A DNA stretch of 64,000 nucleotides from Caballeronia sp. NK8. GTDB lineage: Bacteria; Pseudomonadota; Gammaproteobacteria; Burkholderiales; Burkholderiaceae. Position 1 is the first letter of the stretch. The number at the start of each line of letters is the position of its first letter. The position numbers and the translations under genes are program-made. The stretch is taken from positions 248,001 through 312,000 of the forward strand of contig NZ_AP024327.1 in assembly GCF_018408855.1 (NCBI RefSeq), written 5' to 3'. Under the pieces are notes generated by a model that was not told the origin of the DNA, did no database searches, and saw nothing but the letters and a program-made list of their open reading frames with translations. This document shows positions 55,390 through 63,453 of this stretch, piece after piece.

Positions 55390-56820
55390 ATGATCGAACT
55401 CGACAGACTCGCCCAGATCCGTATCTTCGCCGATCTCCCGCAAGACCGGCTGGCATGGTTGAGCGATCGCGTCAGCGAATTCTCGATAGCGGCGGGCGAC
55501 GTGGTGCTGCGCGAAGGCGACATGGCCACGAACCTCACGATCCTTCTCGACGGCGAACTCGTCGCGACGCAAAGCGCCGGCGGAGAGCACGATGTCGAGC
55601 GCTATGTCAGGCCGGAGGCATTCGGCACGCCCTGCGTGATGGCGTCGATACCCTATCCGGTCACGCTCACCGCCACGCGCGATTGCCGGCTCGCGCGCCT
55701 GCCGGAAGCGGCGTTCCGTGAACTGTTCGTGTCATGCGGCTCGTTCAGCCAGGCCGTCGCGCGCGTGATGAGCGACTGGCTGACCGCGCTCGAAACCGCC
55801 GCGCTCAATCGCAGCCGGCTCGCCGCACTGGGCAAGCTCGCGGCGGGACTCGCGCATGAGATGAACAATCCGGCATCGGCGTTGACGAGCGGGCTTGCCT
55901 ACGTGCGCCGAGAGCTCGACGCGCTCGAAGCGTCGGCGCTCGCGCTCGGCCGTCACGCGGTATCGAAGGAAATGCTCGAACGGCTCGGCGCGCTCGTCGC
56001 CCGCAAGGCCGTGGCGGCGGCGGGTCCGATTTGCCAGAGCGAGCGCGAGTCGCGCCTTGCCGACTGGCTCGCCGCGCGCCAGGTGACGAAGCCATGGCGG
56101 GTTGCACCGGCGCTCGCGGCACGCGGCGTCGCGCCGGACGACCTCGCGCCGCTCGCGGACGAACTGAGCCCGGCGCAACTCGATGCGGCCATCGGCTGGA
56201 TCGCGCGTGTGCTGGATCTTCGCGGTGTGGTGGATGACGCGGCGCAAGGCGCGCAGCGCATCTTCGATATCGTCGCGGCGATGAAATCCTATTCGTTCAT
56301 GGATCAGGGGCCGCAACAGGAAATCGATCTGCACGACGGCCTCGACAACACGCTGATGGTGATGACGCACGAGACACAGCGCGGCATCGCGATCACGCGC
56401 GCGTACGATCGCAGCCTGCCGCGCATCCAGGCCTACGGAAGCGAGCTCAATCAGGTCTGGACGAGCATCGTCGAGAATGCGATCGAGGCGATGGACGGGC
56501 AGGGCGCCATTGCGATCCACACGCGCCGCGACGGCGACGACGCCGTCGTCGAAATCGCCGATAACGGCCCGGGCATTCCACCCGACGCGCTGGAGCACGT
56601 GTTCGAGCCGTTCTACACGTCGAAGTATGCGCTCCATGCACACGGCCCGAGCCTGGGTCTCGGTCTGCATATCGCGTACCGCATCGTGGTGAACCGGCAC
56701 GGCGGAACGATCGGCGCGCGATCGGATGCGAACGGCACGGTCTTTCGGGTCACGCTGCCGCTCGCGGGGACACGCGCGAAAGTGCCTGCAAGCGGGCGGC
56801 TTGCGGGTCCGGTGCTGTGA
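55390..56820 (+). CDS. Cyclic-nucleotide-binding-domain sensor histidine kinase (first copy)
   Basis: A 476-residue soluble kinase. Residues 1-115 are a CNB/Crp-like domain (LAQIRIFADLPQDRLAWLSDRVSEF, EGDMATNLTILLDGELVA). The phospho-accepting histidine is H156 in GLAHEMNNP. After a long insert come the second helix AAMKSYSFMDQG and a complete ATPase domain: N363 in VENAIEAM, DNGPGIP (391-397), FEPFYTSK (405-412) and GLGLH. No membrane segment exists, so the signal is cytoplasmic, possibly a nucleotide or redox change. It is coupled in arrangement to the receiver fusion at 56907 and to a second, similar kinase. Confidence 0.88.
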   Translation: MIELDRLAQIRIFADLPQDRLAWLSDRVSEFSIAAGDVVLREGDMATNLTILLDGELVATQSAGGEHDVERYVRPEAFGTPCVMASIPYPVTLTATRDCRLARLPEAAFRELFVSCGSFSQAVARVMSDWLTALETAALNRSRLAALGKLAAGLAHEMNNPASALTSGLAYVRRELDALEASALALGRHAVSKEMLERLGALVARKAVAAAGPICQSERESRLADWLAARQVTKPWRVAPALAARGVAPDDLAPLADELSPAQLDAAIGWIARVLDLRGVVDDAAQGAQRIFDIVAAMKSYSFMDQGPQQEIDLHDGLDNTLMVMTHETQRGIAITRAYDRSLPRIQAYGSELNQVWTSIVENAIEAMDGQGAIAIHTRRDGDDAVVEIADNGPGIPPDALEHVFEPFYTSKYALHAHGPSLGLGLHIAYRIVVNRHGGTIGARSDANGTVFRVTLPLAGTRAKVPASGRLAGPVL

Positions 56821-56906
56821 TGAAAGGTGCGCGAAACCTCGTCGCCATAGCGTCTACAATGTCTGCAACGCATGCCGCGCCCGCAGTCGTGAGCGCCTGA
56901 GCCGCC

Positions 56907-58568
56907 ATGGACAAGCCCGTGATTCTCGCCGTGGACGACGACCCGATCGTGGCCGGCGCGGTGGCGCGTGACTTGCAGATCGCATACGGCGAGCATTATC
57001 AGATCGTGCGCATGGATTCGGGACCGGCGGCGCTGGAGGCGGCGCAGCATTTGCGCCTGCAGAACCGGTCGGTGGCGCTTTTCATCGCGGATCAGCGCAT
57101 GCCGAAGATGAGCGGCATCGAGTTTCTCGAACAGGCCATCGAACTGTTTCCCGAAGCCAAGCGCGTGCTGCTGACCGCCTACGCCGACACCGACGCCGCC
57201 ATCCGCGCGATCAACACGGTGCATCTCGATCAGTATCTGCTCAAGCCCTGGCACCCACCCGAGCAGAACTTCTATCCGGCGCTCGACGACCTGCTCGCCG
57301 ACTGGCACGCGTCGTCGCGTTCGGCGTTTCAGGGCATCCGCATTCTCGATCACCGCTGGTCGCCGCAAGGGCATCAACTGCGCGATTTCATGGCGCGCAA
57401 TCACATTCCGTTTCGCTGGCTCGACGTCGAACGTCACGCCGAAGCCGAACCGCTTCTGAGCGCGCTCGCGCCGGGGCAGCGTCACCTGCCGGTGATCGTG
57501 TTCGAGGACGGCAGCGTGCAGAGCCGTCCCACGACCGCGCAGATCGCCGAAAAGGTCGGGCTGCACACGCGTTCGACGACGCCGTTCCACGACCTCGTGA
57601 TCGTCGGCGGTGGACCGGCCGGACTGGCGGCGGCCGTGTACGGCGCATCGGAAGGGCTGCATGTCGCGATCATCGAGTGCGACGCGCCCGGCGGACAGGC
57701 CGGCACCAGTTCGCATATCGACAACTATCTCGGCTTTCCGTCCGGCGTGAGCGGCGCGGACCTGTCGCGGCGTGCGCTCGCGCAGGCGCGGCGCTTCGGC
57801 GCGGAGATGATCCTCACGCAGCACGCGGTGGGGCTGCGTATCGAGCCGCCGTACAAGTTCGTCAGGCTATCGGATGGATCGGAAGTAAGCTGTCTCGCGC
57901 TGATGGTCGCGAGCGGCGTGTCGTATCGCAAGCTGGAAGCACGCGGGGTGCAGGAACTGACGGGCGCGGGCGTGTATTACGGTGCGGCGCTGGTGGAGGC
58001 CGTCGCGTGCGCGAATCAGGACCTGTATATCGTCGGCGGTGCGAATTCTGCCGGCCAGGGCGCGATGTTTCTGTCGAAGTACGCGCGCTCGGTCACGATC
58101 CTGTGTCGCGGGCCGTCGTTGAGCGCGGGCATGTCGCACTACCTCGTCGAGCAGATTCACGAGACCGAGAACATTCGCGTGCGCCCGCATACGGAAGTCG
58201 AGAGCGTGAGCGGCGACGGGCATCTCGCGGACATCACGCTGCGCGACCTGCAGACCGGAGATTCGGAGACCGTTCCGGCGAGCGGGCTGTTCGTGTTCAT
58301 CGGCGCGGCGCCGTGCACGGAATGGCTGCGCGGCGTGGTCGAGCGCGACGAGCACGGCTTTCTGCTGACGGGCCGCGCGCTCGTCAAAGGCGGGCGCGCG
58401 CCCGCGGGATGGGAGTCCGGGCGCGATCCGTTCCTGCTCGAAACGAGCGTGCCCGGCATTTTCGCGGCGGGCGACGTGCGCGCCGATTCGGTCAAGCGCG
58501 TCGCGGCGGCGGTGGGCGAAGGCTCGATCGCCGTGCATTTCATCCATCAATATCTCGCGAATCCATGA
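56907..58568 (+). CDS. Fused response regulator-glutaredoxin-like-thioredoxin reductase-like protein
   Basis: A 553-residue three-domain protein. Receiver (1-125): acidic D10-D12, phospho-acceptor D62 in ADQRMP, T90 and K113. Middle (140-222): a glutaredoxin-like fold (IRILDHRWSPQGHQLRDFMARNHIPF, cis-Pro in HLPVIVFEDG), but the CxxC place reads WSPQ (151-154). C-terminal (228-553): a FAD/NAD(P)H thioredoxin-reductase-like part with GGGPAGL (234-240), GGANSAGQGA (377-386) and AGDVR; the CxxC between the two halves is replaced by YYGAALVEA. So it is a flavoprotein controlled by phosphorylation, without redox cysteines of the usual kind. It lies between two kinases. Confidence 0.88.
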   Translation: MDKPVILAVDDDPIVAGAVARDLQIAYGEHYQIVRMDSGPAALEAAQHLRLQNRSVALFIADQRMPKMSGIEFLEQAIELFPEAKRVLLTAYADTDAAIRAINTVHLDQYLLKPWHPPEQNFYPALDDLLADWHASSRSAFQGIRILDHRWSPQGHQLRDFMARNHIPFRWLDVERHAEAEPLLSALAPGQRHLPVIVFEDGSVQSRPTTAQIAEKVGLHTRSTTPFHDLVIVGGGPAGLAAAVYGASEGLHVAIIECDAPGGQAGTSSHIDNYLGFPSGVSGADLSRRALAQARRFGAEMILTQHAVGLRIEPPYKFVRLSDGSEVSCLALMVASGVSYRKLEARGVQELTGAGVYYGAALVEAVACANQDLYIVGGANSAGQGAMFLSKYARSVTILCRGPSLSAGMSHYLVEQIHETENIRVRPHTEVESVSGDGHLADITLRDLQTGDSETVPASGLFVFIGAAPCTEWLRGVVERDEHGFLLTGRALVKGGRAPAGWESGRDPFLLETSVPGIFAAGDVRADSVKRVAAAVGEGSIAVHFIHQYLANP

Positions 58569-59968
58569 GCGATCCGTCGATGCTCTTCGAGATGCCGCTC
58601 TTCGCGGTCTTGTCCGCCGAGCGCAAGCAGTGGCTCAGCGCGAATCTGAGCGAGCATCGCCTGAAGCGTGGCGAAGTCCTGATGCGCGAAGGACAGACCG
58701 TGACGCATCAGTTCATCCTGCTCGAAGGCGAGCTGCTGACTGAAAAGCTCGTCGCGGGCCGGCAGGTGATCGACGATACGCGCCCCGCGCCGGTTTCGGT
58801 CGCGGAGGCTTCGTTGCTCGCGGGCATGCCGCTGCCGCTCACCTTCAGCGCGAACACGGACTGCTATCTCGTCTCGCTGACCGAGAGCGTCGTGCGTACG
58901 CTGTTGAGCGAATGCGAGTCCTTCAGCAAGCAGATCTTCCAGTCGATGTACGGCCGCATCAGCGCCTACGACACCTTCATTCTGAGCGGCGAGAAGCTGG
59001 CCGCGCTCGGACGCCTGTCGGCGGGGCTCGCGCACGAGCTGAACAATCCGGCGGCGGCCGTGGCGCGCGCGGCGGACGGCATGCGCGACGCGCTCGACAG
59101 TCTGCATCGGGCGACGCGCGCGCTCGTCCTGTGCGCGATGCCCGCCGACATCATGGATACGCTCGACGCCTGGGCGAGCCGCGCGCCGCCCGTCGTCGAC
59201 GCCACGCCGCAGGGCGCGTTGCGGCAGAGCGAAACGGAAGAGCGTTTCGCGCAGTGGCTTTCTTCACACGGGTTCGCGAAGCCCTGGCTGATCGCGCCGC
59301 GCCTCGTGGCGGCCGGTTTTGCGCCGGAAGAACTGGAGTCCGTAGCGGCGCGCGTGAGCCGCGAGCAATTCGGCGCGGGTGTCCGCTGGCTTGCCGCGAC
59401 ATTCGAGATGCGCTTTCTGTCGGAGCAGACGTGGCTCGGCGCCGGACGCATCTCGGAGATCGTGAAGGCGATGAAGTCGTACTCCTACATGGATCAGGCG
59501 CCGCTGCAGGAAGTCGACATCCACACCGGTATCGAGGATACGTTGACCATCATGCAGCATCGGCTGAAGCATGGCGTGGTCGTCACGCGGGACTACGATC
59601 GCGCGTTGCCGCCCGTGCCGGTGTACGGCAGCGAGCTGAATCAGGTGTGGACCAATCTGATCGACAACGCCATCGACGCGATGGAAGAAAACGGCGAGCT
59701 CACGATCCGCTCGCATCGGGAAGGCAACTGCGCGGTGATCGAGATATCCGACACGGGCCACGGCATACCGGCCGATATCCTGCCGCGCCTGTTCGAGCCG
59801 TTTTTCACGACCAAGCCGCCCGGCAAGGGCAATGGGCTGGGGCTGCACATCGCGTACCGGACGGTGGTGCATCGGCACGACGGCCGGCTCAACGTGGTCG
59901 CGAACGATAGCGGCACCACGTTTCAGGTGCGCCTGCCGCTCGAGCATCGGCACGCGGCGGCGCGCTGA
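58565..59968 (+). CDS. Cyclic-nucleotide-binding-domain sensor histidine kinase (second copy)
   Basis: A 467-residue soluble kinase built like the one at 55390. The CNB-like domain covers 1-120 (LFEMPLFAVLSAERKQWLSANLSEHRLKRGEVL). The phospho-accepting histidine is H158 in GLAHELNNPA. The central insert (residues about 220-300) is clearly related to that of the first kinase (FAKPWLIAPRLVAAGFAPEELE, then KAMKSYSYMDQ). The ATPase motifs are IDNAIDAM, SDTGHGIP, FEPFFTTK and GNGLGLHIAYR. Its ATG overlaps the receiver fusion stop as ATGA, so they are cotranscribed. It probably passes phosphate to D62 of that protein, as may the first kinase. Confidence 0.88.
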   Translation: MSDPSMLFEMPLFAVLSAERKQWLSANLSEHRLKRGEVLMREGQTVTHQFILLEGELLTEKLVAGRQVIDDTRPAPVSVAEASLLAGMPLPLTFSANTDCYLVSLTESVVRTLLSECESFSKQIFQSMYGRISAYDTFILSGEKLAALGRLSAGLAHELNNPAAAVARAADGMRDALDSLHRATRALVLCAMPADIMDTLDAWASRAPPVVDATPQGALRQSETEERFAQWLSSHGFAKPWLIAPRLVAAGFAPEELESVAARVSREQFGAGVRWLAATFEMRFLSEQTWLGAGRISEIVKAMKSYSYMDQAPLQEVDIHTGIEDTLTIMQHRLKHGVVVTRDYDRALPPVPVYGSELNQVWTNLIDNAIDAMEENGELTIRSHREGNCAVIEISDTGHGIPADILPRLFEPFFTTKPPGKGNGLGLHIAYRTVVHRHDGRLNVVANDSGTTFQVRLPLEHRHAAAR

Positions 59969-59973
59969 GCGCG

Positions 59974-61506
59974 TTAGCCGGGCGCGCGCTCCGACACCGT
60001 CTCGCGGTGCGCGTCATACGAAGGCGCACTGGCGTCGGCGGGCAACGACGAGCCGAGCGCCGCCGACAGCAGACCTTCGACCGACGGGCCCATCGCGTCC
60101 GTGAAGGTCTTCGGGTGCACGCCGATCGCGAGCACCAGCACGGCCATCGCCCCGAACAGCGCGAACTCGCGCTTGCCCAGATCGCGCAGCGTGGCCACGC
60201 GTTCGTTCTTCACCGCGCCGAAGATCACGCGCTTGACCATCCACAGCGTGTAGGCGGCGCTCAGGATCAGCGACGAGGCGGCGATTGCGCCGATCCAGAA
60301 ATTCACGCGAATCGCGCCCATCAGCACCAGAAACTCGCCGACGAATCCCGACGTGCCGGGCAGGCCGACGTTGGCCATCGAGAACAGCATCGCGCAGACG
60401 GCGAAGCGGGGCATTGTGTTGGCGACGCCGCCGTAGGCATCGATCGAGCCGTTTTTGGTGCGCTCGACCAGCACGCCGGTGCACAGCAGCATCGCGCCCG
60501 AGACGATGCCGTACGACAGCATCTGCACGACCGCGCCTTCGGTGCCCATGCGGTCGAACGTGAACAGGCCCAGCGTCACGAGACCCATGTGCGCGACCGC
60601 CGAGTACGCGAGCAGCTTGCGCATGTCCGTCTGCACGAGCGCGACGAGACTGCCGTAGATGACGGCGACGAGCGCCAGCGCGATCATCGCCGGGGCGAAG
60701 AAGTGGGATGCGTCGGGCACGATCGGCAGCACGTAGCGCAACATGCCGTAGCCGCCGATCTTCAGCATGCCGAGCAGGATCGCCGCGCCGGTCGGGCCTT
60801 CCGCGTTGACGTCGGGCAGCCACGTGTGGACCGGCCACATCGGCACCTTGACCGAGAACGCCGCGAGGAAGCAGACGAACACCACGATCTGCGGCGTGAA
60901 GCCGAGCTTCAGATGGCGCCACGCGTCGATGTCGAAGGTATGCGCCTGCGTCCACAGGTAGATCAGCGCGGCCAGCATCGCGAGCGAGCCGAGCAGCGAG
61001 AAAAAGAAGAAGCGGATGGCCGCGTACACGCGCCGCTCGGCGCCCCACGTGCCGATCAGCAGATACAGCGGAATCAGCGACGCTTCGAAGAACACGAAGA
61101 ACAGCATGCCGTCGAGCGACGCGAACACGCCCTGCATGCAGCCCGAGAGCACGAGAAACGCGCCGTAGTACTGCGCGACCTGCTTCGTGACCGCCTGCCA
61201 CGACGCGACGAAGACGATGAGCGTCGTCACGGCCGTGAGCACGGTGAACCACAGCGAAATGCCATCGACGCCCAGGTGATACGAAATACCGAACTGCGGC
61301 AGCCACTCGACGCGCTCGACGAACTGCATCGCGCCCGACGACGCATCGAAGCGCGACAGCAGCGGCACGACCGGCAGCAGGCTGAGGATCGCGCCGAACA
61401 TCGCGACGGCGCGCGCGAGCGTCGCCGAAGCGCTGAACGTCAGCACGAAGATGCCGGACACCACGGGAATCCAGATGAGAAAGCTGAGAACGGACGGCAG
61501 ATGCAT
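59974..61506 (-). CDS. nuoM: NuoM-like proton-translocating subunit, orphan
   Basis: A 510-residue membrane protein of complex I subunit M/antiporter type, with about fourteen membrane segments. Features are FGISYHLGVDGISLWFTVLTAV, the proton-channel region PVHTWLPDVNAEGPTGAAILLGMLKIGGYG with its lysine, HMGLVTLGLFTFD, and GTSGFVGEFLVLMGAIRVNFWIGAIAASS. The standard NuoM plan is thus preserved. What is odd is the setting: no other nuo gene lies beside it, on either side. It may be a second copy serving another complex, such as a bicarbonate-uptake (Dab-type) unit; see findings. Confidence 0.85.
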   Translation of the reverse strand: MHLPSVLSFLIWIPVVSGIFVLTFSASATLARAVAMFGAILSLLPVVPLLSRFDASSGAMQFVERVEWLPQFGISYHLGVDGISLWFTVLTAVTTLIVFVASWQAVTKQVAQYYGAFLVLSGCMQGVFASLDGMLFFVFFEASLIPLYLLIGTWGAERRVYAAIRFFFFSLLGSLAMLAALIYLWTQAHTFDIDAWRHLKLGFTPQIVVFVCFLAAFSVKVPMWPVHTWLPDVNAEGPTGAAILLGMLKIGGYGMLRYVLPIVPDASHFFAPAMIALALVAVIYGSLVALVQTDMRKLLAYSAVAHMGLVTLGLFTFDRMGTEGAVVQMLSYGIVSGAMLLCTGVLVERTKNGSIDAYGGVANTMPRFAVCAMLFSMANVGLPGTSGFVGEFLVLMGAIRVNFWIGAIAASSLILSAAYTLWMVKRVIFGAVKNERVATLRDLGKREFALFGAMAVLVLAIGVHPKTFTDAMGPSVEGLLSAALGSSLPADASAPSYDAHRETVSERAPG

Positions 61507-61847
61507 GGGTTTTTTTGAATCGAACGCAAGGCGCGGCCAGCACGCGATGGACGTGCTCGCTGGAACAGCGCGAATGACAGTGGAATGTAAGGCGGGGCGG
61601 GTGCGCGGAGGGTTCGGGGCGACTTGAACGTATTCAGCGTAGGCCTAAGGGTTAACGAGAATAACCCAAAAGAAAAGATTTTGGGGAATTGCCGGGGATC
61701 AAATTCATTGCGCGCGGCGGCATTGACATTTTTACCGATTGGCTGTTCGGCGGGCTGCGCGCTGAATAAACCGTCCGTTCGCTCCGGGCTTGCCCTGATT
61801 TGCCCGGAACCGTCTGACCCTTAGCCTAGATGGCAAGGAGACTCAGC
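61507..61847. other. 341-base intergenic region between NuoM-like and small exported-protein genes
   Basis: This region holds the small dyad GGGTTA-7-TAACCC (61649-61667). It also holds a long-range inverted pair: TAGGCCTAAGGG (61640-61651) and CCCTTAGCCTA (61818-61828), which match as complements except one base. A TTGACA at 61724 has no clear -10. The pair may fold the 5' leader of the gene at 61848. An open frame at 61624-61824 looks non-coding. Confidence 0.5.
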
Positions 61848-62096
61848 ATGCGAAAAGTATTCAAGGCCGCCGTATTCGCGCTCGTCGCTTACCTCGTCGC
61901 CGATCGCGCCATGCTCCACGCGCAGGGACGCGACCTCAGCGCGGCTGCGTGCGTCCAGAGCGCCGCGCAGGTCGAATTCGACGCGCTGAGCAAGGGCTTC
62001 AGTCAGGCCGCCGCGAGCAGTCAGCGCGACGCGTTCAGATCGCAATGTCTGGTGTCCGGCCGCGCGCAGAGCGGCGAAGCCATGGCGATGCGGTAA
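61848..62096 (+). CDS. Small exported hypothetical protein, 82 residues
   Basis: An 82-residue protein starting MRKVFKAAVFALVAYLVADRAMLHA, a plausible signal peptide or N-terminal membrane anchor. The rest is alanine- and serine-rich with two cysteines (C35 or so in AACVQSAAQ, and one in RSQCLVSGR) that might form a disulfide. AGGAG stands eight bases before the ATG at 61848; an earlier ATG at 61830 contains that site and is less likely. I do not recognise a family. It is convergent with the NDH-2-like gene four bases downstream. Confidence 0.6.
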   Translation: MRKVFKAAVFALVAYLVADRAMLHAQGRDLSAAACVQSAAQVEFDALSKGFSQAAASSQRDAFRSQCLVSGRAQSGEAMAMR

Positions 62097-62100
62097 GGCT

Positions 62101-63453
62101 TCAATTCAGCTTCACCGTAGGCCGCACGCGTTCGCGAAGCCATTGGCTCGCAGCGTACATCACCGCGCGCCTGACGCCCGTGAGCCCCATGATGTGCCGG
62201 CGATACAGATGCCGGTAACACGACGCCGCGAACCATCCGTCGATGAAAAGCGGCTGCCGCAGCAACTCGCTCATCAGCGCGCCCGCCGCGCCGGCGCGTC
62301 CGAAGGAAATGAGCGTGCCCTGATCGCGATAGGCGAACAACGGCACGGGGCGATCGTCGAGGCGCCGCGTGAGCGCATCGGCGAGATAGACGGCCTGCTG
62401 AAAGGCTGCCTGCGCGCGCGGCGGCACCAGCGCGTCGCCTTTCGCTGCGGCGCACGCCGCGCAATCGCCCATCGCATGAATGCCCGAACCGGGTTCGATC
62501 TGCAACGTGCCGTCGACGATCACCTGTCCGAGCCGGTTCAACGGCAATCCTTCGAGCGTGCGCAACACGGGCGGTCCTTCCACGCCGGCGGCCCAGATCG
62601 TGATGTCGCTCGCGAGCGTTTCGCCATCCACGGTCGCAACGGCGTTCGCATCGACCGCGCGCACGCGGCAACCCAGTCTCACTTCGACGCCGAGTCCGGC
62701 GAGCACGTCCTGAGCGCGCGTCGAGATGCGCTCCGGCAGCGCGGGCAGCACGCGCGGCGCGCCTTCGAGCAGACGAATGCGGATATCGTCGGCCGGATCG
62801 AGCGACGCGAGGTGATAGTCGCGCAGCATTTCCGCCGATCCGCGCAGTGCGGCGGCCAGTTCGACGCCCGTCGCGCCGCCGCCGATCACCGTCACTGAAA
62901 CCGGCGTCCGGGCGGCGCCGGGCTCGGCCTGCCGCGCATGGCCCGAGCGCAGCAGGCTCGACAGTAGACGCCGCCTGAACGTTTCCGCCTGCTCCACTGT
63001 CTCCAGCGTCAGCGCATGCTGTTCGGCGCCCGGAATCGCGAAGAAGTTCGTCACGCTGCCGAGCGCGAGCACGAGCGTATCGAATGCGAGTGTGCGCTTG
63101 GGCATGAGCGGGCGGCCATCGACATCGGTCGTCTCGTCGATGACGATCTCGCGCCGACCCCGGTCGATACTCGCGAGCGCGCCCTGTTCGAAGCGGAAGT
63201 GATTCCACTTCGCGTGAGCGGCGTAGTCGATCTGATGGCTCGATGCATCGATCTGGCCTGCCGCGACTTCGTGCAGCAGCGGCTTCCAGAAGTGCGTCGG
63301 AAAGCGGTCGATGAGGATCACTTCGGCGCGCCGCCGCTTGCCGACGCCATTGCCGAGACGCGTCGCGAGTTCCAGCCCGGCCGCGCCGCCGCCCACGATG
63401 ACGATGCGATGCGGAGAATCGACCTGGCGTTGCGCATATGGATTCAACATCAT
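62101..63453 (-). CDS. NDH-2-like NADH dehydrogenase (NAD(P)/FAD-dependent oxidoreductase)
   Basis: A 450-residue flavoprotein. Features of type II NADH:quinone oxidoreductase are RIVIVGGGAAGLELATRLG for FAD, DRFPTHFWKPLLHEVAAGQ, VTVIGGGATGVELAAALRG for NADH, and FAYRDQGTLISFGRAGA. The MGDCAAC FAD motif follows at about residue 330. The C-terminus after 400 is amphipathic (YRRHIMGLTGVRRAVMYAASQWLRERV) and should bind the membrane. It oxidises NADH without pumping protons. It is divergent from a CbbR-like LysR gene, its probable regulator, with GGAGA before the start. Confidence 0.88.
   Translation of the reverse strand: MMLNPYAQRQVDSPHRIVIVGGGAAGLELATRLGNGVGKRRRAEVILIDRFPTHFWKPLLHEVAAGQIDASSHQIDYAAHAKWNHFRFEQGALASIDRGRREIVIDETTDVDGRPLMPKRTLAFDTLVLALGSVTNFFAIPGAEQHALTLETVEQAETFRRRLLSSLLRSGHARQAEPGAARTPVSVTVIGGGATGVELAAALRGSAEMLRDYHLASLDPADDIRIRLLEGAPRVLPALPERISTRAQDVLAGLGVEVRLGCRVRAVDANAVATVDGETLASDITIWAAGVEGPPVLRTLEGLPLNRLGQVIVDGTLQIEPGSGIHAMGDCAACAAAKGDALVPPRAQAAFQQAVYLADALTRRLDDRPVPLFAYRDQGTLISFGRAGAAGALMSELLRQPLFIDGWFAASCYRHLYRRHIMGLTGVRRAVMYAASQWLRERVRPTVKLN

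Follow-up and report, generated by a model that had tools for sequence, protein, structure and literature searches.

A Response Regulator with Glutaredoxin-Like and Thioredoxin Reductase-Like Parts, Both Lacking CxxC, Encoded Beside Cyclic Nucleotide-Binding-Type Histidine Kinases in Caballeronia sp. NK8

The Locus

The 64,000-nucleotide stretch of Caballeronia sp. NK8 DNA analysed here (contig NZ_AP024327.1, positions 248,001 to 312,000, from a genome of 9.2 Mb; hereafter the window, with positions counted from its first letter) encodes a protein in which a response regulator receiver is fused to a glutaredoxin-like part and a thioredoxin reductase (TrxR)-like part. The gene of this fusion is flanked by those of two histidine kinases carrying cyclic nucleotide-binding (CNB)-like domains (Table 1). 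In agreement with a first-pass annotation made from the sequence alone, the coordinates of the open reading frames (ORFs) place the three genes on one strand, with 86 bp between kinase 1 and the fusion and an overlap of 4 bases between the end of the fusion and the start of kinase 2.

In both kinases, the cNMP_binding (PF00027) and HATPase_c profiles score above the curated Pfam cut-offs, and HisKA (PF00512) scores below its own. The phospho-acceptor histidine of the H-box is H156 in kinase 1, as first annotated, and H157 in kinase 2, for which H158 had been given. In the fusion, Response_reg and Pyr_redox_2 (PF07992; 120 bits against a cut-off of 26.1) exceed the curated cut-offs. The glutaredoxin-like part named in the first-pass annotation falls below the cut-offs of both the Pfam glutaredoxin profile (PF00462; 15.2 bits against 22.9) and the NCBIfam mycoredoxin profile (TIGR02200; 43 against 89.5), although residues 144-216 have a thioredoxin-type order of strands and helices in the predicted model. 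No DNA-binding domain was found in the fusion by the Pfam scan, and a PADLOC scan of all three proteins gave no match to a defence system.

Table 1. Genes and protein features of the locus, in window positions
Feature	Position	Strand	Basis or remarks
Kinase 1, 476 aa	55390-56820	+	CNB-like domain (Pfam stretch 32-113), H-box GLAHEMNNP, H156, HATPase_c 352-459
Kinase 1, long insert (approx. residues 175-300)		+	Read by eye
Kinase 1, phosphate-binding-cassette region of the CNB-like domain (residues 76-99)	55615-55686	+	Glu and Arg of the cyclic nucleotide site both replaced
Receiver/glutaredoxin-like/TrxR-like fusion, 553 aa	56907-58568	+	ORF and domain profiles
Fusion, receiver domain (residues 1-118; D10, D11, D62, T90, K113)	56907-57260	+	PF00072, 53.4 bits
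Fusion, glutaredoxin/mycoredoxin-like domain (residues 143-222)	57333-57572	+	Profiles below cut-offs; predicted strand/helix order; WSPQ (151-154) at the place of CxxC
Fusion, TrxR-like FAD/NAD(P)H part (residues 227-553)	57585-58565	+	G359-A-A-L-V-E364 at the place of C-x-x-C-D
Kinase 2, 467 aa	58565-59968	+	CNB-like domain (Pfam stretch 31-116), H157, insert, HATPase_c 357-460

Loss of the Cysteine Pairs

The fusion carries no CxxC at its glutaredoxin-like site or at its reductase site, and this loss is a property of the family and not a local one. Relatives were taken as the best 80 of 590 confirmed matches to two patterns in named genomes, and CxxC occurs in 0/80 of them at either site. 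In the window protein the glutaredoxin-like site reads WSPQ, which is neither CxxC nor CxxS, and the reductase site reads YYGAALVEA (residues 357-365); both motifs, like the absence of the two pairs, had been correctly read in the first pass. The replacement residues are themselves conserved (W151 in 73, S152 in 74, Y358 in 80, G359 in 79 and E364 in 80 of the 80 relatives), and E364 aligns with the conserved Asp that stands beside the second TrxR cysteine in ten canonical enzymes of close relatives. Pro195 of the glutaredoxin-like part is invariant (80/80), as are N380-Q384, R401, S410 and R525, and the Rossmann motif positions for FAD and NAD(P)H are common to the fusion and the canonical TrxR of close relatives. 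The receiver residues D10, D11, D62, T90 and K113, of which D62, T90 and K113 had been pointed out at the start, are intact in all 79 readable relatives; the 80th has no receiver part, its ORF being split by an in-frame stop.

Cysteines elsewhere in the protein could in principle restore the redox site, a point already raised by the first-pass annotation, and no general one was found. C368 is the only cysteine near the reductase site, being Cys in 65/80 relatives and Tyr in 13/80; no second conserved cysteine lies close to it in the alignment of the 80, and C329 is Cys in only 48/80. Because of the Tyr at 368 and the limited conservation of C329, no general dithiol is restored, and C368 was rejected as a general redox cysteine. 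The fusion might still act as a disulfide, polysulfide or persulfide reductase through C368 or another residue, as the predominance of Cys at this position would allow. Transcripts of SCO7298 of Streptomyces coelicolor, a 'TrxB'-class response regulator named trxB3, point in the same direction, being increased, according to the available portions of the two reports, by reactive sulfane sulfur (PMC9952706) and by acid shock (PMC2631018). However, in those portions the data on SCO7298 consist of transcripts and a promoter probe, and the H2S-release test used other genes; with Tyr in 13 relatives and no second conserved cysteine nearby, such a reductase is considered improbable.

Family Spread and Selection

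A protein search gave at least 7,999 scored homologues of the fusion. Among the 120 listed, identity is 60-91% over 86-100% of the query; their named sources are Burkholderiaceae, cyanobacteria, Chloroflexota and Rubrobacter, and many of them bear the JGI label 'thioredoxin reductase (NADPH)'. The best 80 of 590 are essentially full-length matches with 49-89% identity, assigned by their titles to Pseudomonadota, Cyanobacteriota, Chloroflexota, Actinomycetota, Acidobacteriota, Bacteroidota and Gemmatimonadota, and to metagenome-assembled genomes of Meiothermus, Limisphaerales, Desulfuromonas and one Nitrososphaeraceae archaeon. In this archaeal genome, for which a binning error is possible, the fusion is accompanied by a CNB-type kinase (L091:5919-9418). 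In the tree of the fusion, the window protein clusters with 13 rows from actinobacteria (support 0.90), apart from L065, the sole other Pseudomonadota row recognised by title; this grouping and the patchy presence of the locus suggest its horizontal transfer.

Since both modules have lost their catalytic cysteines, the gene could be taken for a decaying or non-functional thioredoxin reductase duplicate. However, columns conserved in at least 95% of the 80 relatives number 92/327 in the TrxR-like part, 32/118 in the receiver and 10/80 in the glutaredoxin-like part, and the signature motifs are near-identical across phyla. For nine of the eleven orthologues in the genus (L105-L113; the set leaves out L114 and L115, which are the most distant), pairwise ratios of nonsynonymous to synonymous substitution rates (dN/dS) against the window gene are 0-0.085 for the receiver, 0.051-0.244 for the glutaredoxin-like part and 0.011-0.087 for the TrxR-like part. 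All three parts are thus under purifying selection, and given the low dN/dS and the column conservation the fusion is not a decaying enzyme; a non-functional duplicate is hardly credible.

Pairing of Kinase and Fusion

Kinases of this type occur within the fetched flanks of 66/80 fusion loci, these flanks covering up to 8 kb on each side, often less, and the thresholds being set by the analysts. The linked loci hold one kinase ORF in 57 cases, two in 8 and three in 1, some of the genes being split or partial. Among the 14 loci without a linked kinase, L056 has a kinase fragment truncated by the contig end. Genomes in which the genes are not linked, which the first-pass annotation had named as evidence against its reading, therefore exist, but a whole-genome search of 11 unlinked cases (L039, L046 and L056 lay outside it) found a kinase of the same type elsewhere in 10 of them. 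In the genus, fusion (E <= 1e-150) and kinase (E <= 1e-45) occur in the identical 12/58 genomes, and among 350 genomes drawn from the class the fusion was found in the window's genome and in one other, both with the kinase; a weak kinase match was seen in 2 further genomes of this draw. The linkage, which recurs in many bacterial phyla, and the large number of homologues are more than chance would give.

The three genes are not equally constant. In each of the 12 genus members with the fusion, kinase 2 adjoins it. Kinase 1 is beside the fusion in 8/12, counting G001 and G014, where a homologue of it is divergently placed, and absent there in 4/12 (G006, G018, G020, G029). For example, at L150, L151 and L153 the window's insertion site, which runs from transporter genes to the NuoM/NDH-2 genes, is occupied by a locus without kinase 1. 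A conserved trio is rejected on these grounds, and the constant unit is the kinase-fusion pair. A tree built from 89 kinase cores, the unlinked ones of L130-L134 not among them, places all 23 kinases from Burkholderiaceae together (support 0.996), with weak support for the order inside their clade (0.56). Because both kinases fall in this single clade, kinase 1 and kinase 2 look like duplicates that arose within the Burkholderiaceae lineage. Kinase 1 diverges faster, sharing 81% identity with its L106 counterpart where the fusion shares 97% and kinase 2 shares 91%, and its ATP lid has a 4-residue insertion relative to kinase 2.

Input Domains of the Kinases

The two kinases had been suggested to receive opposite nucleotide signals, that is, cAMP or cGMP would set them in opposite directions. 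The PF00027 scores of both proteins are in keeping with this, as is the Glu of the phosphate-binding cassette, which is kept in kinase 2. However, when the kinases are aligned to structures of protein kinase A regulatory subunits, the cassette Arg is replaced by Tyr in kinase 1 and by Leu in kinase 2, and kinase 1 has also lost the Glu. The Arg is kept in only 4/69 aligned kinase rows; in five of the 69, CNB residues are lacking or a different domain stands in their place. In addition, the input domain itself can be exchanged on the same kinase core beside the fusion. In L043 (6310-7836) the CNB-like domain is replaced by a receiver, and in L093 (5712-7988) by a receiver and PAS domains, both according to Pfam; the kinases of L089 and L081 appear similar to these two by eye. 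The loss of the Arg and the exchange of the domain in L043 and L093 mean that the CNB domain name is no guide to the ligand. As the CNB-like domains have no phosphate-binding Arg, cyclic nucleotide signals to both kinases appear unlikely from the alignment, and opposite control of the two by cAMP or cGMP is very improbable.

Neighbouring Genes and a Paralogue in the Same Genome

When neighbouring ORFs of at least 80 aa were clustered over the 80 loci, a small zf-UBP protein had the widest spread (14/80), followed by a dehydrogenase (9/80), other histidine kinases (9/80), NarL-like regulators (8/80) and ABC ATPases (7/80). The zf-UBP domain is known from eukaryotic ubiquitin hydrolases. A direct search found zf-UBP proteins near the fusion in 18/80 loci across phyla, up to some 6 kb away (for instance L088:9662-9928 and L069:5641-6000), and two representatives were confirmed as PF02148. 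The genome of the window has no PF02148 match, and an obligate zf-UBP partner is thereby rejected for this genome.

Downstream of kinase 2, on the opposite strand at 59974-63453, lie a stand-alone NuoM-like antiporter subunit (PF00361) and a protein resembling NADH dehydrogenase (PF07992). These NuoM/NDH-2 genes were also rejected as partners, since they stand beside the fusion only in genomes that share this insertion site; NuoM is missing in L149 even at the shared site, and neither gene was found in the stretches L155-L158, L025 and L026.

Another protein of interest is a paralogue encoded in the same genome (G000:C2:114726-115889; L010:898-2691; YYWASPVEAKLC). It is like the fusion in its glutaredoxin/TrxR-like part, with 45% identity, the YY......EA..C motif and no CxxC, and unlike the fusion in carrying a CNB-like domain in the place of the receiver. 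The paralogue thus joins a CNB-like domain to the same type of output, and this supports a functional link between CNB input and such an output. Directly downstream of the paralogue, an ORF resembling a transposase or integrase was read by eye.

Proposed Function

The reading preferred here, to which we give about an even chance of being right, is that the fusion works as a response regulator with a thiol-less NAD(P)H flavoprotein as its output, and that phosphorylation gates this output. The domains, the missing cysteines, the conservation, the linkage and the lost cassette Arg are seen in the sequences themselves; phosphotransfer, binding of FAD and NAD(P)H and gating are what we infer from them. 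A CNB-fold domain that has lost its cyclic nucleotide site would read a signal within a cytoplasmic two-component system. Kinase 2, together with its duplicate kinase 1 where present, would autophosphorylate the H-box histidine, and the phosphoryl group would pass to D62 of the fusion. The latter would bind FAD and NAD(P)H as thioredoxin reductase does, though neither its reductase part nor its glutaredoxin-like part has a dithiol. Phosphorylation may then shift the placement of the NAD(P)H domain, or of the receiver/glutaredoxin-like part, on the flavin. This shift would switch on or off the transfer of electrons from NAD(P)H to the flavin, toward an acceptor other than the usual protein disulfide; alternatively, it would switch the binding of a partner. 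A phosphorylation-tuned flavoenzyme that no longer reduces disulfides had already been proposed in the first-pass annotation; the loss of CxxC, the intact receiver, the kept motifs and the co-occurrence with the kinase agree with it as far as the usual route of reduction is concerned, whereas its control by phosphorylation stays a prediction.

The predicted structure offers some information on the cofactor domains. The TrxR part of the model differs by 2.0 Å over 302 positions from 5mh4, a flavin-reducing state, and by 7.5 Å over 301 positions from 5mjk, which shows that protein in its flavin-oxidising state. The model may thus fit the flavin-reducing state better than the flavin-oxidising one, with a bias of the method possible.

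Several observations weigh against the thiol-less, phosphorylation-gated flavoprotein. The 80 relatives are the top-scoring of 590 and hence not a random sample. C368, being Cys in most family members, may have a thiol role in them. The NADPH motif of thioredoxin reductases, HRRxxxR, which is present in the canonical rows of the alignment, is only partly kept in the family (R401 in 80/80, the next position being Gly in 59/80). As for the models, that of the fusion has a pTM of 0.65 and a pLDDT of only about 67-71 at residues 261-280, which belong to the flavin-side segment, and the control model of a canonical TrxR, built from an alignment of 31 close relatives, reached a pLDDT of 49.7 and is no valid control. 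Regarding the pairing, the genome of L099 has no kinase of the same type in the whole-genome search (1/11), and three fusion-bearing members of the genus (G002, G004, G016) encode extra unlinked CNB-type kinases (L130-L134). Because of these copies distant from the fusion, the kinase can have other roles or partners.

A different possibility is that the fusion is a non-catalytic sensor, in which the FAD/NAD(P)H part serves as input and the protein acts as a redox-tuned phosphate sink or adaptor; the state of flavin or NAD(P)H would alter the dephosphorylation of the receiver or the binding of a partner. The missing dithiol and the lack of a detected DNA-binding domain are consistent with this sensor, and so are the conservation of Pro195, W151 and S152 in a glutaredoxin-like part devoid of cysteines and the presence of two or more kinase ORFs, some split or partial, in 9/80 loci. 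On the other hand, the invariance of E364 and the near-invariance of the cofactor motifs exceed the needs of a mere scaffold, and among other receiver proteins none neighbours the fusion generally, the NarL-like cluster, the largest of them, reaching 8/80 loci. A non-catalytic sensor is regarded as rather unlikely.

Few response regulators are known whose enzymatic output is anything but nucleotide turnover. If the output is indeed a phospho-gated NAD(P)H flavoenzyme, a two-component signal would be tied directly to electron flow with no transcriptional step. As one kinase type is sharply paired with one fusion, two proteins suffice for a direct test.

Comparison with Known Systems

Like low-molecular-weight thioredoxin reductases, the fusion has the FAD/NAD(P)H motifs and the fold. 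Unlike them, it has no CxxC and has gained receiver and glutaredoxin-like parts, and its TIGR01292 score of 215 bits lies below the cut-off of 343.45. Another relative by architecture is AhpF, which also places an N-terminal part of thioredoxin fold ahead of a TrxR-like part. In AhpF the N-terminal thioredoxin folds occur in tandem, whereas the predicted secondary structure gives the fusion a single thioredoxin-fold unit. The fusion further differs in its added receiver and in lacking CxxC in both parts, and its TIGR03140 (AhpF) score is 153.5 against a cut-off of 502.9.

A TrxR fold without CxxC is also found in the TrxR-type ferredoxin/flavodoxin-NADP reductases and in the bacillithiol disulfide reductase (YpdA/Bdr). 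The hallmark of the TrxR-type ferredoxin-NADP reductases is a C-terminal extension with an aromatic residue that stacks on the flavin; in the 80 relatives of the fusion the tail after H547 has 6-10 residues, with no long extension. Bdr carries a Cys in its GxGPC motif, and the corresponding position 238 is Ala in 76/80 relatives, including the window protein (A238), and never Cys. The RG....S motif of the fusion resembles that of YpdA, and the score with the YpdA model is 48.5, below the cut-off of 339.9. Membership of the ferredoxin-NADP reductases or of Bdr is rejected on these sequence features (short tail, Ala238).

The closest match is the catalogued 'TrxB' class of response regulators, to which the locus belongs. 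As far as the accessible parts of the sources go, this class has been reported for SCO7298 of S. coelicolor, paired with the kinase SCO7297 (PMC9739842), and for a single TrxB-type regulator in one of 17 thermophilic cyanobacteria (PMC9953108), and a receiver joined to thioredoxin reductase has been reported for two Heimdallarchaeota in an archaeal census (PMC5847659). A literature search that left most subscription journals outside found no account of the mechanism of the class. As in the window, a receiver is fused to a TrxR-like domain and a kinase gene adjoins, and no difference was seen among the features tested. The name of the class implies a disulfide reductase, which these members cannot be by the usual mechanism; the class thus carries a reductase name contradicted by its sequence, and the name is probably misleading. 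By analogy with the Streptomyces loci L069, L075, L083 and L085, SCO7298 would also be devoid of CxxC, in which case the name trxB3, used in stress studies, misleads as well. It is possible, if on balance doubtful, that the whole class is misnamed and consists of widespread phospho-gated thiol-less NAD(P)H flavoenzymes with a new acceptor, whose CNB-fold kinases mostly read a non-nucleotide signal. Under this broader proposal, acceptors such as reactive sulfur, a quinone or a partner protein are conceivable, the zf-UBP protein being one candidate.

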